A DNA stretch of 61,445 nucleotides from Victivallis lenta (GTDB lineage Bacteria > Verrucomicrobiota > Lentisphaeria > Victivallales > Victivallaceae), in NCBI RefSeq assembly GCF_009695545.1, contig NZ_VUNS01000029.1:1-61445 (forward strand), given 5' to 3'. Under the pieces are notes generated by a model that saw only the letters and a list, made by a program, of their open reading frames with translations, had not been told where the DNA came from and searched no databases. The position numbers and the translations under genes were made by a program. Shown here one piece after another: positions 19,983 through 33,118 of this stretch (within the stretch, counting starts at the first letter, position 1; each line of letters opens with the position of its first letter).

Positions 19983-20624
19983 ATGAAGAAATCACTGTGG
20001 ATGATCGCGTGCGCCTCCCTCGTCGCAGGTGCCATCACCGGATGCAAGACGGAAGAACCGCTGCCGGAGCCGCCGAAGGAGTATATCCATGTGCCGGTGC
20101 AACTGGTGGCCGGAGCCATTCCGGGCGGCAGCCAGGAGAAGATCATGTCGAATCCGAATCTGCGGGCTTACGCAGTAGGGCGATACGTCGATCCGCATAA
20201 GCGTGTGATGCACGAACAGCACTCCGTCTACCGGATGGAGAAGCTGCCGGAGTGGAACCTGCTTCCGCAGCCTGACGCCGATCCGGTGCTCCGGGCTCAG
20301 AAGATGCGGCAGGAACGGTATGCGGATGCCGCGACCGGCCAGATCGAACGGACTGCCGCGGAAATCCATGAGATGCGCCAAACCGTCCTGATGCTTCTCG
20401 AAAGCCGGAACGTCCAGAAACAGCAGGCCGATACGCTGCTCCGGAATTTTGAAACCCTGAAAAAGCAGTATGGCGTCCTGTCGGGAAACATGGTCAAAAC
20501 CTCCGAATTCGTGAACTCTCTGGAGGGTGAACTCAAGAAACTGAAGCAGGAGAATGAAGTTCTGAAGCTCCAGCAGAAAAAACGCGAGCTTCCCGCCGCC
20601 TGTCCGCCGGAGGTGCGCCAATGA
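19983..20624 (+). CDS. Lipoprotein with coiled-coil C-terminus
   Basis: Protein of 213 residues if it starts MKKSLWMIACASLVAG at 19983, with AAGGGA about seven bases upstream; the ATG at 19965 has no ribosome binding site. The lipobox is ITGC. A Pro-rich mature N-terminus (EEPLPEPPKEYIHVPVQL) is followed by a helical C-terminal half with heptad-like periodicity (about 115-205). It lies between the VirB10-like gene and a small membrane protein it overlaps by 4 bp. Possibly a VirB7-type lipoprotein stabilising the outer complex, although far larger than VirB7. Family not recognised. Confidence 0.6.
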   Translation: MKKSLWMIACASLVAGAITGCKTEEPLPEPPKEYIHVPVQLVAGAIPGGSQEKIMSNPNLRAYAVGRYVDPHKRVMHEQHSVYRMEKLPEWNLLPQPDADPVLRAQKMRQERYADAATGQIERTAAEIHEMRQTVLMLLESRNVQKQQADTLLRNFETLKKQYGVLSGNMVKTSEFVNSLEGELKKLKQENEVLKLQQKKRELPAACPPEVRQ

Positions 20625-20881
20625 AAAAACAGTGGGTTCCTATCCTGATTCTGGTCTGGCTGGTTCTCCTGACCGTCTGCATGGTTCTGTTCCAGATGCG
20701 GACCGGCGTCGTCGATGAAATCCTCGATGAACAGGACCGGCAGGCCGGAATCCTGATCAAGCAGTCGGAGATTCTGGCACTCAATACAGTCCTTGTCCGG
20801 GCGCTGGTCGAACAGGTACGGTCCGGCAGGGAAACCGCGAAAGATGAGGTGACATTAAGACTGGAGGAACTGCCGCAGTAG
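20621..20881 (+). CDS. Small single-pass membrane protein
   Basis: Protein of 86 residues with one N-terminal membrane segment (about 5-26) and a charged helical remainder. Its ATG overlaps the previous stop (ATGA), with GGAGGT upstream. No family recognised. The topology (short N-terminus, one segment, coiled helix) and coupling to a lipoprotein gene suggest a partner in the envelope complex of the conjugation machine. Confidence 0.6.
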   Translation: MKKQWVPILILVWLVLLTVCMVLFQMRTGVVDEILDEQDRQAGILIKQSEILALNTVLVRALVEQVRSGRETAKDEVTLRLEELPQ

Positions 20882-20988
20882 CGGATGATCCGGAATGCTG
20901 AGGACAGGCCCGCGCTCCTCCGCTTTCCGTCAGGTGATCGGCATCCGGAATGCGTGATAAAAGAACACCTGAGGAAAGGAGTTTCACT

Positions 20989-27759: not shown

Positions 27760-28158
27760 TCACTTCTGTTCGGAGCTGTGTTTTTTGAGAAAAAGCGTAA
27801 TCTCCGCTTTCAACATCTTTCCACTGGCGACACGCAGAACCATCGCGGTAAATTCTTCGTCGGATGCCTCGAAATCGATTCCATTCATATCAAGAAAGAC
27901 CAGTGCGGCCATGGCGCCGACCCGTTTGTTGCCGTCGACAAACGGATGATTTTCCACAAGATGAAAGAGATAGGCCGCCGCCATCTCGTAAATGGTCGGA
28001 TGCAGGAACGTTCCGCCGAACGTTGCAGACGGCATACCGATCGCGGATTTCAAAAGTTCCATATCACGCACTCCGGAAGCTCCGCCGAAGTTCTCAATCT
28101 GGTAATTATGGATCTCAATGATTTCGGCGAATGTGAGAAAAACCGGCTCGGATTTCAC
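27760..28158 (-). CDS. doc: Doc-type Fic-fold toxin
   Basis: Protein of 132 residues with the Doc signature HPFVDGNKR at residues 71-79. The final NKR in place of the Fic consensus NGR marks Doc-like proteins, which phosphorylate elongation factor Tu and arrest translation. Other Doc-family features are the N-terminal EIIEIHNYQIENFGG and the helix around SAIGMPSATFGG. It overlaps the upstream AbrB-like antitoxin gene by 4 bp, the usual toxin-antitoxin coupling. It would stabilise the element after integration. It converges on the end of the transfer operon. Confidence 0.88.
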   Translation of the reverse strand: MKSEPVFLTFAEIIEIHNYQIENFGGASGVRDMELLKSAIGMPSATFGGTFLHPTIYEMAAAYLFHLVENHPFVDGNKRVGAMAALVFLDMNGIDFEASDEEFTAMVLRVASGKMLKAEITLFLKKHSSEQK

Positions 28159-28382
28159 TTCGCAAGCTCCTCGAAAGACTTCTTATAGCGTTTGCCGATC
28201 TTATCCATGGATTTGTGAAACTTACCGGCCCGAACCGCGTCTTTCACGGGTGTGAGAACGAGCGCCTGACCATCGGTTACGACCTCAAATGCCGTGTCGA
28301 TGGTTGCCCCGAGCAAATCAAGAATCGGCTTTTCAATCACAAGCGCCGCGCTGTTACCGTGCCTGGTCAGATTTTTGATCAT
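28155..28382 (-). CDS. AbrB/MazE-like antitoxin
   Basis: Protein of 75 residues with an N-terminal SpoVT/AbrB swapped-hairpin domain (LTRHGNSAALVIEKPILDLLG, then FEVVTDGQALVLTPV) and a charged helical tail that would bind the toxin. It precedes and overlaps the Doc-type toxin gene. Doc of phage P1 is paired with Phd, but Doc-family toxins with AbrB-like antitoxins are also known. It probably represses its own promoter in the AT-rich 150 bp upstream. Confidence 0.8.
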   Translation of the reverse strand: MIKNLTRHGNSAALVIEKPILDLLGATIDTAFEVVTDGQALVLTPVKDAVRAGKFHKSMDKIGKRYKKSFEELAK

Positions 28383-28536: not shown

Positions 28537-29142
28537 TTACTGAACATCTTCATCGGTTATATTCAGGTAACTTCGCGTTGCGGCCAAAGACCGCTGGCCG
28601 AGTATTCGCTGAATTTCGCTGAGTGCATAGTTGCCGCGGACAGCCAACTGGTATCCCCAGGTTTTCTGGAGAGTCAGAAAACCGACTTTTTCCTGCAATC
28701 CGCTTGAAGCCGCAGATTCTTTGAGGAAAGCTGTTACATAGCCCTGCGACCAAGGCTGAGCTATTCCTGACAACCTGCGAGTTTCAGTTTGGAACAGGTA
28801 GACATCATTTGCCGTTGCTGCACGGAGTTGCTTGATTTCTCGGGCATCATCGTCGGAAATTCTGATTAACATTTTGCTGCCGGCTTTCGTCAATTCCGAA
28901 AGCCGAAGCAGAGTCATTTCCAATTGTTCTCCTGAAACCGGGTCAAATATCGTTTGATTTTCAATTTGTTCCCAGGTCAGTTTGAGAAGCTTGCCCGGAG
29001 CGATACCGGTGTCCAAAGCAAGTATGAAAAACACGTAATGCTTTTGAGAATAATGGCACTTGACGTATTTACGCCAACGCATTAAGCCACCCAGGTCTTT
29101 GACCGGTTTGGCGGCGGACGGGACATTGCCTTTGCTGTTCAT
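28537..29142 (-). CDS. Degenerate tyrosine-recombinase-like protein
   Basis: Protein of 201 residues starting MNSKGNVPSAAKPVKD at 29142, overlapping the upstream stop by ATGA. It aligns by eye with the catalytic domain of tyrosine integrases (LALDTGIAPGKLLKLTWEQI; ANDVYLF; GQRSLAATRSYLNITDED). The first Arg is replaced (TGIAP where TGLR is expected), HxxR is LTLQ at 156-159, and the GH histidine is Gln183; only Tyr192 remains in place. The N-terminal core-binding domain is missing too. It therefore probably cannot cut DNA and may act as an accessory or regulator for the intact integrase in the same cluster. Pseudogenisation is less likely because the frame is open and coupled. Confidence 0.75.
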   Translation of the reverse strand: MNSKGNVPSAAKPVKDLGGLMRWRKYVKCHYSQKHYVFFILALDTGIAPGKLLKLTWEQIENQTIFDPVSGEQLEMTLLRLSELTKAGSKMLIRISDDDAREIKQLRAATANDVYLFQTETRRLSGIAQPWSQGYVTAFLKESAASSGLQEKVGFLTLQKTWGYQLAVRGNYALSEIQRILGQRSLAATRSYLNITDEDVQ

Positions 29143-30011
29143 TTCCGTATTGATTCCTCTGTAACGTCTGAGGATGATTTCGCGGCGAGAAATGCTGAAT
29201 AATAACGCCGCATGGCAGCCGCCGTGGTTCCGGGATATTCCTGATCCTCCAGCAGTTCCACTGCTGTTTTCGGATAGGGATGATTGGTTACAAACTGCCG
29301 CCTGGCTTTCCCGCGCGCCGCCATATCCGTATAGCCTAGAGCCAAATAGGATTGATAATATCTGTTGTATTCTGCACCCCAGCGAATTGCATTCCAATGA
29401 TGTCTTTGCCTTTTGTTCTGGTAGCCTTTCATAAAAGTTTCCAACAATTCCCGGGTAGCCTGTCGGGGAAGCAGTAAAAATTTTCCAAGAACCAGTTGTT
29501 GCTGCCATTCCACTGATAACTGATATAAAAAACGCCATTGGGCTGTTTCAGGTAAAGATATCGCCGCTGCAATCCGGGGAATGAACTGATAGATCGTGAT
29601 AAGCTCTTCGTCTCCGGTTGGAGCAGGATCGGGAAATTCTTTCAGCTTCTCATTGACGCGAGGGTCATCCACTGAACCATGCGGATTGAAGAAAAGAGAC
29701 TTCGAGTCAATATGCGATTCAATAAAGATGCTGACTTTCTGAAGATATTCATTCTCTTTGCCGCTCAACATATCCATATTCAATACCGGATACTTGCGGG
29801 TAATTTCCAAAAGCAGAAAAGAGATCAAATTTTGTCTCCATGCTGCAAGAAGTCTGCGTGGGGAATCATTTGAAATGCCGGAAGGAGTGACCAACAGAGA
29901 ATGGATATCTATCAGCACGGGCGCCTGCTCATAGATATCCTGCAATTTCGCATAATATTGATTGGATTTCTCTGCCGTCATATTTTCCTGCCAATTATTT
30001 ATAACATACAC
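29139..30011 (-). CDS. Hypothetical protein coupled to the degenerate recombinase
   Basis: Protein of 290 residues, no signal or membrane segment, helical and rich in aromatic residues. The start MYVINNWQEN at 30011 has AGGA upstream; a second Met at residue 11 is an alternative. Recognisable stretches are LLAAWRQNLISFLLLEITRKYP and a basic segment YQNKRQRHHWNAIRWGAEYNRYYQSY that could contact DNA. Its stop overlaps the start of the recombinase-like gene, implying a joint function in integration, excision or control. No family recognised. Confidence 0.6.
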   Translation of the reverse strand: MYVINNWQENMTAEKSNQYYAKLQDIYEQAPVLIDIHSLLVTPSGISNDSPRRLLAAWRQNLISFLLLEITRKYPVLNMDMLSGKENEYLQKVSIFIESHIDSKSLFFNPHGSVDDPRVNEKLKEFPDPAPTGDEELITIYQFIPRIAAAISLPETAQWRFLYQLSVEWQQQLVLGKFLLLPRQATRELLETFMKGYQNKRQRHHWNAIRWGAEYNRYYQSYLALGYTDMAARGKARRQFVTNHPYPKTAVELLEDQEYPGTTAAAMRRYYSAFLAAKSSSDVTEESIRK

Positions 30012-30105
30012 GTTTTATTCCTGATTTCAAAATCGGAAAGCTCTTTATGGATAAAACAAACATCGGTGGAATGTCAACTCCACCGATGCTTTGGGGCAAA
30101 GGAAA

Positions 30106-30411
30106 TTACTTCTGTGAGTCCTGTAAAAATTGGGCAATGCTGTCAGCTGTGATTCGTGCTGAACGATGGCCGAATTTGATGCGCTTCAGCTTCCCATCTT
30201 TGATATAGTCGTGGATAGCTTTCTTGCTCACTCCCAGATAATCGGCTGCCTCCTGAATCCGGACCAGCCGCGGGAATTTCGGCCCCTCGTCTTCTTTGCT
30301 TTGCCGGACTGCGACTTTCAGCTCGTCGAGTTCGCTCTGCTCCAAGGCGCCGCAGGCGACCAACGGAGTTGCAAGCTGGATCAGGGTGTCAAGGGTTTTC
30401 GGTTGTATCAT
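30106..30411 (-). CDS. Excisionase-like helix-turn-helix protein
   Basis: Protein of 101 residues with a MerR/excisionase-type winged helix-turn-helix in its second half (RIQEAADYLGVSKKAIHDYIKDGKLKRIKFG, about 47-77), typical of the HTH_17 group that includes element excisionases. The first 45 residues are a separate helical segment. GGAGG precedes the ATG. Its place downstream of the intact integrase on the same strand supports a role as recombination directionality factor, or as a repressor of the module. Confidence 0.78.
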   Translation of the reverse strand: MIQPKTLDTLIQLATPLVACGALEQSELDELKVAVRQSKEDEGPKFPRLVRIQEAADYLGVSKKAIHDYIKDGKLKRIKFGHRSARITADSIAQFLQDSQK

Positions 30412-30528
30412 GTCGGCCTCCTTTCATTGATTGAGGGTTTGAAACTAAAGTAATTATACTGCATGATACGACCGAAAAAAAGAAAATTTGCCCGGCAAAG
30501 CTGAACACCACCGGCAAGTGTTCAGCTT

Positions 30529-32022
30529 TTACGACACATTTTTTGAAATATTCATCCCATTGACCAGATGGCCTGCTGATGATTCCTGAGTTTGGTTTGC
30601 CTCCGGCAGGTTATCCGGCAAATTGTCGATCAAAGTTTCCAGAATCGCCAAAGTCGTTTCCGAAGCATTCTGAATCAGGTGGAGCAGGCGTTCTTTTCGC
30701 AGGGAATAACCGGAAATCGGTTCACTGGTAGCTGGGAGTGAGTTCTGCATAATCAGCTTCAAACCTTCCATACTGGCCTGCTTGTTGGCATGATCCTGAT
30801 AGTGCTGGGTCTGCGCGAGCCGTTTATGGCCGAGCCAGCGTTTAATCGTCGAAGCCGGGACACCTTTTTGTTCCGCTTCATACGAGAAGGTATGGCGAAA
30901 AGAATGGAAACCTTTTACTGTCTGTTTTCTGGCTCGTCCTTCAACCTCAATCCGGGTTGTGATTCCACAGGAAATCAGATAATTCTGGATCATATTGTTG
31001 ATCTTGGTATACCTTTTTTGCAGATGCAGCTCCGCCATTTCCGGAAAGACATATTCACCACGCCGAGTCTGTTTCCATTGCTTTTGCAAAACTTTATTCA
31101 ATTCCGGAAAAACAGGAATATGGACTTGTGTTTTGGTCTTTTGAGCGATAAGAGAAATCTCGCGTCCTGTGAAATCCGGAGCAATTGCCCCGCGATATCC
31201 GGTAATGCCTTCAAAATACTCCCATTTCAATGCCAATACATCTCCTAACCGCAGACCGGTATAACGTCCAACAAAAAGTGGACCGGCTAAAAGTTTGGGG
31301 GGATTTTTGAAAATAATTTCCAACTCTTCCTCGGTAAAGATTTTCCGCTTGACGGGTTCGAGCTTCAAAGGCGGAATATGAGCAAAGGGATTTTCTTCGC
31401 CGCCGAGGTCCGGCAACAGGAATGAAAACACGCTTTTGCAGACCGAATGATAGCGGTTCAGCGTTGTGTGGCTCAAGAGACCGCCTCGTTCATAGTCTTT
31501 GAAAACTTTGCGTTTCGGACAAGTATTGGGATCATAGGAGATGGTTTTGTTCCACCGACCGTATTTGCGTATATAGGCGATATAGGCATCGGCGTGCATC
31601 CGTTCCACTTCATCCAGTGTACGCAACTGATAATTACTTTTCACAAAATTCACAAAGTCGAACCAGTAACCGCGTGAAACCACAAGAACTCTGTTGCTGG
31701 TTTCACGGGAATGCGGCTTGGCCTGAGCCAAATCAAAGGCATTATCCAGTGTAATCAGAAGCCGAGCTTTCAACTTTCGGACAACTTTCAGTTCCGCCAG
31801 ATACTCTTCACGGGTTTCTATTTCTTTCAACTGCTGCTGTTCCTGAAGAAATTTCCTGGCGGCTTCTTCTGCTTCACGGCGTTCCCGGATGTGATTGCCC
31901 TGAGAATTTTTCAAGGTAATGTTTTTTCTTTTTCCGTCCTTCTGCATATATTGCAGATAGAAATTATCTCCTCGTTTGTAAATGGAACCACTGCCGTTGG
32001 AACGTTTTCTGGATACTGCCAT
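30529..32022 (-). CDS. Tyrosine integrase of the element
   Basis: Protein of 497 residues starting MAVSRKRSNGSGSIYKRG at 32022, where AAGGAGG lies upstream; the longer frame from 32133 has no ribosome binding site. An N-terminal arm-binding-like beta domain (about 10-40) is followed by a core-binding domain (about 110-215) and a catalytic domain with complete residues: Arg258 (YTGLRLGD), the HSFR motif with His373 and Arg376, His399 (LGH) and Tyr408 (HYQD). A tail of about 75 residues follows. Tyrosine integrases insert and excise ICEs at specific sites. It is transcribed inward from the right end of the element, the usual position next to the attachment site. Confidence 0.93.
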   Translation of the reverse strand: MAVSRKRSNGSGSIYKRGDNFYLQYMQKDGKRKNITLKNSQGNHIRERREAEEAARKFLQEQQQLKEIETREEYLAELKVVRKLKARLLITLDNAFDLAQAKPHSRETSNRVLVVSRGYWFDFVNFVKSNYQLRTLDEVERMHADAYIAYIRKYGRWNKTISYDPNTCPKRKVFKDYERGGLLSHTTLNRYHSVCKSVFSFLLPDLGGEENPFAHIPPLKLEPVKRKIFTEEELEIIFKNPPKLLAGPLFVGRYTGLRLGDVLALKWEYFEGITGYRGAIAPDFTGREISLIAQKTKTQVHIPVFPELNKVLQKQWKQTRRGEYVFPEMAELHLQKRYTKINNMIQNYLISCGITTRIEVEGRARKQTVKGFHSFRHTFSYEAEQKGVPASTIKRWLGHKRLAQTQHYQDHANKQASMEGLKLIMQNSLPATSEPISGYSLRKERLLHLIQNASETTLAILETLIDNLPDNLPEANQTQESSAGHLVNGMNISKNVS

Positions 32023-32404
32023 ATTGACTATCCTCCTTAACCGAAGTTGAGTTGAGAAATCATCGTCTTTTTCGTCACCATAATTCCCATGGGACGAAAA
32101 AGACAGACCAAATTTCTCTTCAAACCTGATCATTATTGGAAGATATTTAACTTTGGACAGAAAAATAATATTAAATCATTTGATTATAGTAAGTTACAAT
32201 ATAAAATATGAAGTCTGGATAACTTCTGCAATTTTCTGCAATTTTTGTGACGTATCAATGAATAAGGGAGGCAAACTGAGCTCAAATCATGAAAAAAGAT
32301 CAGTCTGGCAAGATTGCAACTCGGCATAAATATAAACAGAGGATATGTGTTGATGATAAAGAAGATATGATATAAAATTTGTTTATTGCATCATCATTAC
32401 TATA
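32023..32404. other. Right end of the mobile element
   Basis: AT-rich, gene-free stretch between the integrase start and the interrupted pseudopilin. GTCTTTTTCGTC (32065-32076) and GACGAAAAAGAC (32093-32104) form a perfect 12-bp inverted repeat, flanked further out by GAGAAAT/ATTTCTC (32055-32061, 32112-32118). These may be integrase or excisionase binding arms, or an operator for the integrase gene. The end of the stretch (32373-32404) is AT-rich and joins directly to pseudopilin coding DNA at GCGATCATCGC. Confidence 0.55.
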
Positions 32405-32425
32405 GCGATCATCGCGATTCTCGCC
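32395..32425. other. Probable attR junction in a pseudopilin gene
   Basis: From 32405 the sequence GCGATCATCGCGATTCTCGCC is the same as the codons for AIIAILA in the pseudopilin at 36790 of this window and nearly so in those at 48783 and 53449, whereas everything to the left is unlike any pseudopilin. The shared 11-mer GCGATCATCGC has 5-bp inverted arms (GCGAT, ATCGC) about one central base, as expected of a recombinase core site. The exact crossover cannot be fixed without the left end. Confidence 0.6.
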
Positions 32426-33118
32426 GCCATGCTGCTGCCCGCGCTGAACCAGGCGCGCGAGAGAGCCCGCAGCATCTCCTGCACGAACAACCTGAAGCAG
32501 TGGGGGCTGGCCTTCGCCTCGTATGCGGATGAAAACAACGGTTATATGGTTCCGACGCTGCACTCCGGCGACACCCCCGTCTCCGGCAAGGAGAAGTGGC
32601 AGATGAACAATTACTGGCCGGCCTCGCTCGCAAAATATCTGGGGCTCGGCGACAAGTCCGGCAAGCTTGCGGTCGCGTTCGAGGAGCAGAAGGAGCTCCG
32701 GCTCATGATCTGTCCGTCCCTGCAGGAGAACTGGGGCTATGCCATGAACTCCAAGTATCTCTCGCACGTCCAGCCTTCCCAGCCGGCCGGCGGTTATCTG
32801 AACAAGTGGGCGAAGATCGGCCGGATCGGGAATGCCTCGTCCGTCGTCAGCATCGCCGATGCGGAGTGGTATCTGAATCCGGAGAAGACCATGAAACGCT
32901 CCGAATGGTGCGCCTATCTCGCCGCCGGCGGCAACGGCTTCGTCAACTGGTGGCCGATGTCCGCCTTCCGGCACAGCGGCCGGGCGAATTACAGCATGAT
33001 CGACGGCCACGTGATGTCGATGTCGATGCATTCCGGCATCGTCAAAGAAGGCGGCATCACCAGCGACGAGTGCGACCGGAAATGGTGGGGAAAACGGGCC
33101 GGATTCGAGTACGATTGA
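32405..33118 (+). pseudogene. Pseudopilin gene truncated at its 5' end
   Basis: Encodes the C-terminal part (about 235 codons) of a type II-secretion-like pseudopilin. It begins in mid-helix with [22 protein letters not shown] and continues [21 protein letters not shown] to a C-terminal globular region with the family-typical [13 protein letters not shown]. The start codon, the FTLIE processing motif and the first half of the helix are missing. In-frame sequence upstream is ICE-like DNA that reaches a stop at 32357 without an ATG. The ATG at 32429 is an internal Met and not a real start. Interruption by the element explains the loss; the missing 5' part should lie at the element's far end. 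Confidence 0.8.

Follow-up and report, generated by a model that had tools for sequence, protein, structure and literature searches.

A catalytically dead, catalytic-domain-only tyrosine recombinase coupled to a Victivallales-restricted partner protein in a conjugative element of Victivallis lenta

The integration region described here lies on contig NZ_VUNS01000029.1 (G000:C29) of the 5.5-Mb genome of Victivallis lenta, and the entire contig of 61,445 nucleotides was analysed as the window. Victivallis vadensis (G007), of the same genus, carries its copy of the locus on NZ_QEKH01000055.1. The part of the window left of about 32.4 kb is an integrative conjugative element, with genes for a TraG-type P-loop ATPase, TrbI, a TraD/VirD4-like coupling protein, a ParA-like protein and the integrase Int; the integrase, type IV secretion and coupling-protein genes expected of such elements are thus all present. 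A CagX match stayed below the cut-off, no relaxase was recognised among the scanned proteins, and the contig may carry only part of the element. The integration region is read from the minus strand in the order Int, HTH, P290, mini-Int, and contains the following features.

30529..32133, minus strand: Int, intact full-length tyrosine recombinase, start probably near 32022 (PF00589, 51 bits; PHROG 1, 3.9e-37)
30497..30529, minus strand: inverted repeat with 12-bp arms directly after Int, a probable terminator (sequence)
30453..30458, minus strand: TATAAT box upstream of HTH, also in the equivalent gap of related loci (gap sequences, read by eye)
30106..30411, minus strand: HTH protein of an excisionase-like family, 101 aa (PF12728 HTH_17, 6e-11; TIGR01764 excisionase, 6e-9)
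30058..30091, minus strand: strong hairpin or palindrome between HTH and P290 (z -4.3)
29139..30011, minus strand: P290, 290 aa, GTG start, Victivallales-restricted family (homologue searches; no known family matched)
29139..29142, minus strand: ATGA overlap of the P290 stop and the mini-Int start (sequence)
28537..29142, minus strand: mini-Int, catalytically dead, catalytic-domain-only tyrosine recombinase, 201 aa (PF00589, PHROG 216, catalytic residue table, AlphaFold model)

An earlier note on this DNA had described the two overlapping frames of 201 and 290 residues and their common strand with an intact integrase and an HTH gene, and was right on both points. Between mini-Int and the coupling-protein gene lies a Fic/Doc-family gene (27760-28382, minus strand) with a small overlapping gene upstream; the two are probably a toxin-antitoxin pair.

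A mechanical open reading frame caller gave a longer mini-Int frame of 333 aa (28537-29538), extended upstream. The 201-aa protein is likelier because homologues begin near its start, and for this reason, together with the ATGA overlap, the longer reading was rejected. Residues 34-197 match PF00589 with 30.5 bits (cut-off 27.1), and the protein matches PHROG 216, annotated as "integrase", at 1.3e-18. Its AlphaFold model (pLDDT 83, pTM 0.82) has the tyrosine-recombinase catalytic fold, the top solved structure being XerA (Z 17.2, 166 residues, 2.7 Å); XerH and an integron integrase were also matched, as was SroF of phage phi3T, deposited as a repressor (Z 10.9). The calculated pI is 9.4. When aligned with catalytically intact relatives, the window copy reads A-K-L-Q-Q-Y in place of the R-K-H-R-H/W-Y set of active tyrosine recombinases, with alanine for Arg-I (TGIAP), the beta-Lys kept, leucine for His-II and glutamine for Arg-II (LTLQ), glutamine for His-III (GQ), and the tyrosine kept. 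The fold and tyrosine that the earlier note had seen as retained, and the first Arg, HxxR and GH histidine that it had seen as missing, were thus borne out by profile, model and alignment.

The same note had reported the absence of a core-binding domain; none was found in mini-Int by Pfam and PHROG scans, but this is not a truncation, because a catalytically intact family consisting of the catalytic domain (CAT) alone exists. These PHROG 216 proteins, annotated as "tyrosine-type recombinase/integrase" (about 190-200 aa, from phage contigs and plasmids), share with mini-Int the size, an N-terminal VxPI motif and the fold, and are nearest to it in the tree; PHROG 216 was matched by 10 of the 10 aligned members. 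They differ from mini-Int in keeping R, K, H, R, H and Y, and those examined lack the P290 pairing. Intact CAT-only relatives were found on IMG/VR contigs, in other genomes of the class, and on plasmids of Vibrio, Peribacillus and Natranaerobius. From its sequence relations and architecture, mini-Int appears to be a dead offshoot of this CAT-only family.

Homologues of mini-Int were searched in 149 related genomes and then in 137 genomes of the order. Close homologues occurred in five genomes, all Victivallaceae, from three genera, and at seven loci an open mini-Int directly follows P290 in the order Int-HTH-P290-mini-Int, with L044 holding an extra P290 relative between Int and HTH. At each of the seven, mini-Int overlaps the stop of the long P290, by 4, 4, 4, 14, 20, 53 and 53 nt. 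Arg-I is absent from all eight homologues, replaced by A, Q, S or D. At the other positions the dead mini-Ints vary by lineage: His-II has become L, A or V or is still H, Arg-II is Q in the two Victivallis copies only, and His-III is Q, M or H. Tyr is retained in every complete copy, a count that leaves aside the last residues of L047, including the Tyr position, where the contig ends at the end of mini-Int. The pattern fits an ancestral loss of Arg-I followed by drift in the remaining pocket. The earlier note had named two findings that would speak against it, active homologues with only this copy decayed and a pair that is not conserved; instead, every operon homologue lacks Arg-I and the pair is present at 7/7 open-frame loci.

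In a maximum-likelihood tree the dead mini-Ints grouped as a single clade (support 100/99, recovered in 100% of 200 bootstrap trees), next to CAT-only relatives with the full catalytic set; the exact sister of the clade is unsure because long branches meet there. Among the G014/G031 copies, mini-Int dN/dS was 0.08, 0.04 and 0.08 (dS 0.44-0.90); Int gave 0.04-0.07 and P290 0.17-0.24. Mini-Int is therefore constrained about as tightly as the integrase. Between the two Victivallis copies the ratio was 0.28, a value derived from just 12 synonymous and 11 non-synonymous changes, and the L044/L048 comparison was left out, L048 being a truncated remnant. Broken copies also occur, G007:C35 and G014:C1 with stops or frame breaks and G014:C91 truncated, and these are how decay looks in such elements. 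Since the frame is open at seven loci, the copies form a joint clade and dN/dS is low, the window protein is not a single decayed copy, and the conservation of catalytic loss, pairing and gene order is far beyond chance. The view of the earlier note that an open, coupled frame argues for function was thus strengthened, by the coupling at all open-frame loci and by purifying selection among closely related copies.

P290 gave no credible match in Pfam, PHROGs, NCBIfam or PDB sequences and no relatives in phage and plasmid records; viral contigs searched with P290 and with its profile likewise yielded none. Relatives found by profile searches came from the same order only. The C-terminal domain carries the motif WGxEYxxYL...KTARxAARRDFIxAHPxP...PGxSxxSLRxYHxAYL, and in related elements it also occurs as a stand-alone protein, P135 (about 135 aa, range 128-180 aa), encoded after Int, HTH and often a winged-helix gene. 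No mini-Int followed P135 within the 1.2 kb checked in L054, L055, L056 and L058, or within the roughly 430-550 bp to the contig end in L052, L053 and L057. Long P290 and mini-Int, on the other hand, occur together, and this co-occurrence suggests that the N-terminal extension of P290 is the part that works with mini-Int. The AlphaFold model of P290 (pLDDT 70, pTM 0.47) is poor in the N-terminal part, and a fold search with it returned generic helical matches only (Z up to 6.4). A split-off core-binding domain was considered for P290 and rejected, having neither sequence nor structural support.

In all loci examined HTH has a TATAAT box upstream, and HTH-P290-mini-Int is therefore probably a transcription unit of its own. 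By eye, a -35 box at the usual distance is fair in L043, L045 and L046 and weak in the window and L044, and a hairpin 3' of Int is visible in the window, L041, L045, L046 and L047. This refines the interpretation given in the earlier note, which had proposed a regulator or architectural factor of recombination: shared catalytic loss, conserved coupling and selection agree with it, while the genes probably form a unit separate from Int. Besides the window, L043 has a palindrome between HTH and P290 (z -3.5), and weaker ones occur in the same gap in L045 and L047; attenuator, terminator and operator are all conceivable roles. The HTH promoter region and start codon are spanned by an inverted repeat of 17 nt with 94% complementarity (30396-30412 and 30462-30478), a possible site of autoregulation.

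Dead tyrosine-recombinase-fold proteins have been described in two settings. Strand-biased circularizing integrative elements (SE elements) carry Tfp with Srap, and GInts carry GinC with GinD; Tfp is encoded in a coupled operon and was reported, with srap, to be essential for attL x attR recombination (PMC10214605). The arrangement here is alike in joining a motif-less protein of this fold, an active integrase and a small auxiliary protein in a tight operon of an integrative element (PMC10214605). Tfp is much longer, however, since homologues below 550 aa were filtered out as truncated in that study (PMC10214605), whereas mini-Int has 201 aa; SE elements have two active integrases and no Xis, whereas the window has one Int and a Xis-like HTH gene; and P290 looks unrelated to Srap. 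The SE/GInt gene set (two active integrases, Tfp of at least 550 aa, Srap, no Xis) was accordingly not found here, although a dead tyrosine-recombinase-fold protein does lie in the integrase operon. The second setting is that of phage repressors. MrpR of prophage SPbeta has the fold, keeps Tyr and Lys and has lost the Arg/His set; it does not recombine DNA but binds operators, and its Tyr matters for stability (PMC10516654). Mini-Int resembles MrpR in fold, lost Arg/His and kept Tyr and Lys, and SroF in structure; MrpR and SroF, however, combine a core-binding with a catalytic domain, whereas mini-Int is a catalytic domain alone, in a conjugative element. Mini-Int thus belongs neither to the MrpR family, because it lacks the core-binding domain, nor to the SE Tfp family, because it lacks the size and gene set. 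In arrangement, Tfp of SE elements is the nearest precedent. No published account of the mini-Int/P290 pair was found in open PubMed Central text.

The explanation we favour, with slightly less than even confidence, is that mini-Int is a non-catalytic DNA-binding accessory subunit, possibly in contact with Int, that has P290 as its partner and acts on Int-mediated recombination. We infer DNA binding by mini-Int, a complex with P290 and an action on recombination from the order kept at seven loci, the loss of Arg-I with fold and Tyr retained, the strongly supported clade (100/99) and the dN/dS of 0.04-0.08, to which are added the coupling to long P290, the excisionase-family HTH gene in the same operon, the promoter-like box and the pI of 9.4. 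The Xis-like HTH protein, P290 and mini-Int would be expressed from one operon next to int. P290 and mini-Int would be made together, with P290 presumably an obligate partner that may make up for the missing core-binding domain by supplying oligomerisation or another DNA contact. These proteins would most likely load on the attachment region of the element and determine in which direction, or how efficiently, Int-mediated excision or integration proceeds, much as SE elements need Tfp and Srap. Since the sister elements with Int-HTH-P135 lack a nearby mini-Int, the protein is not generally required. A more specific version, which we advance tentatively, is a recombination-control complex of a new kind, with P290 and the dead mini-Int as its two obligate members; a catalytic domain lacking a core-binding domain would be the DNA-binding subunit, its partner is found in Victivallales only, and the complex would stand where sister elements have the P135 arrangement.

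The main rival of the accessory-factor reading is that mini-Int, together with P290, represses transcription or belongs to a repressor/anti-repressor switch; it would bind operators in front of HTH, int or transfer genes and so keep the element quiescent. A repressor would give the same genomic pattern as an accessory factor, and MrpR, which binds operators and does not recombine (PMC10516654), is a precedent; the structural match to phi3T SroF and the HTH/P290 palindromes of the window, L043, L045 and L047 also speak for it. However, MrpR and SroF have a core-binding domain and mini-Int does not, and all intact loci have the pair beside int. No repeated operator turned out to be shared, and the palindromes are not the same from element to element. 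We regard a repressor as possible, though somewhat doubtful.

Far less probable is that mini-Int donates its Tyr in trans to the Int active site in a mixed tetramer, as in Flp, in which active sites are shared between subunits. The invariance of Tyr in all complete copies and the loss of Arg-I in all would agree with this, but Int already possesses a Tyr and its catalytic domain is intact, and MrpR keeps its Tyr without any recombination, the residue mattering there for stability (PMC10516654). That mini-Int is a decaying integrase relic, open by chance, is hardly credible despite the broken or truncated copies in G007:C35, G014:C1 and G014:C91, since seven open loci, down to 27-30% identity, all lack Arg-I, are all coupled to P290 and show dN/dS down to 0.04, so that selection and synteny already largely refute it.

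Several observations concern the ends of the elements. Pseudopilin genes hold the related elements within the conserved prepilin N-terminal codons, at about 32405-33118 in the window and at L045:6388, L047:5997, L046:11360, L043:7911 and L054:5111-5140, and homology among the G014/G031 elements stops at these codons. The Int side lies against the 3' part of the pseudopilin gene in the window and in L054. Across elements, some have the 5' half at this side and others the 3' half, which may reflect a near-palindromic target (GATCGCGATC). The G007 copy diverges from the window at 32138-32157, a sequence with no second copy in the genome, and the junction with the pilin gene lies to the right of it, near 32405. 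In L045, L046 and L047 a loxP-like inverted repeat, ACCGTCAA-N10-TTGACGGT, flanks Int on both sides, the second copy being inverted; the two copies may serve as recombination sites, as operators or as terminators.

L045, 6632-6669 and 8196-8225: loxP-like repeat copies
L046, 9523-9550 and 11080-11115: loxP-like repeat copies
L047, 6244-6277 and 7805-7834: loxP-like repeat copies

Enterobacterial phages carry a second group of integrase-like proteins that are short (about 130-140 aa); the catalytic residues are apparently absent, and the group is probably related to PHROG 19751. The member in phage HK544 adjoins attP and the integrase.

L135, 5839-6261: second-group member
Phage HK544, 20571-20969 (L159:2492-2890): second-group member

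Dead tyrosine recombinases were already known from phages (MrpR, SroF) and from the SE and GInt elements of Proteobacteria. What is new here is that a dead catalytic domain stands alone and is linked to a lineage-specific partner family; the case adds the conjugative elements of Victivallaceae, a catalytic domain on its own under measurable purifying selection, and one new protein family. Short "integrase" annotations may, as a caution, denote non-catalytic proteins. The mini-Int/P290 pair allows one to ask if a dead catalytic domain on its own can serve as a directionality or regulatory factor, and what contribution its partner makes.
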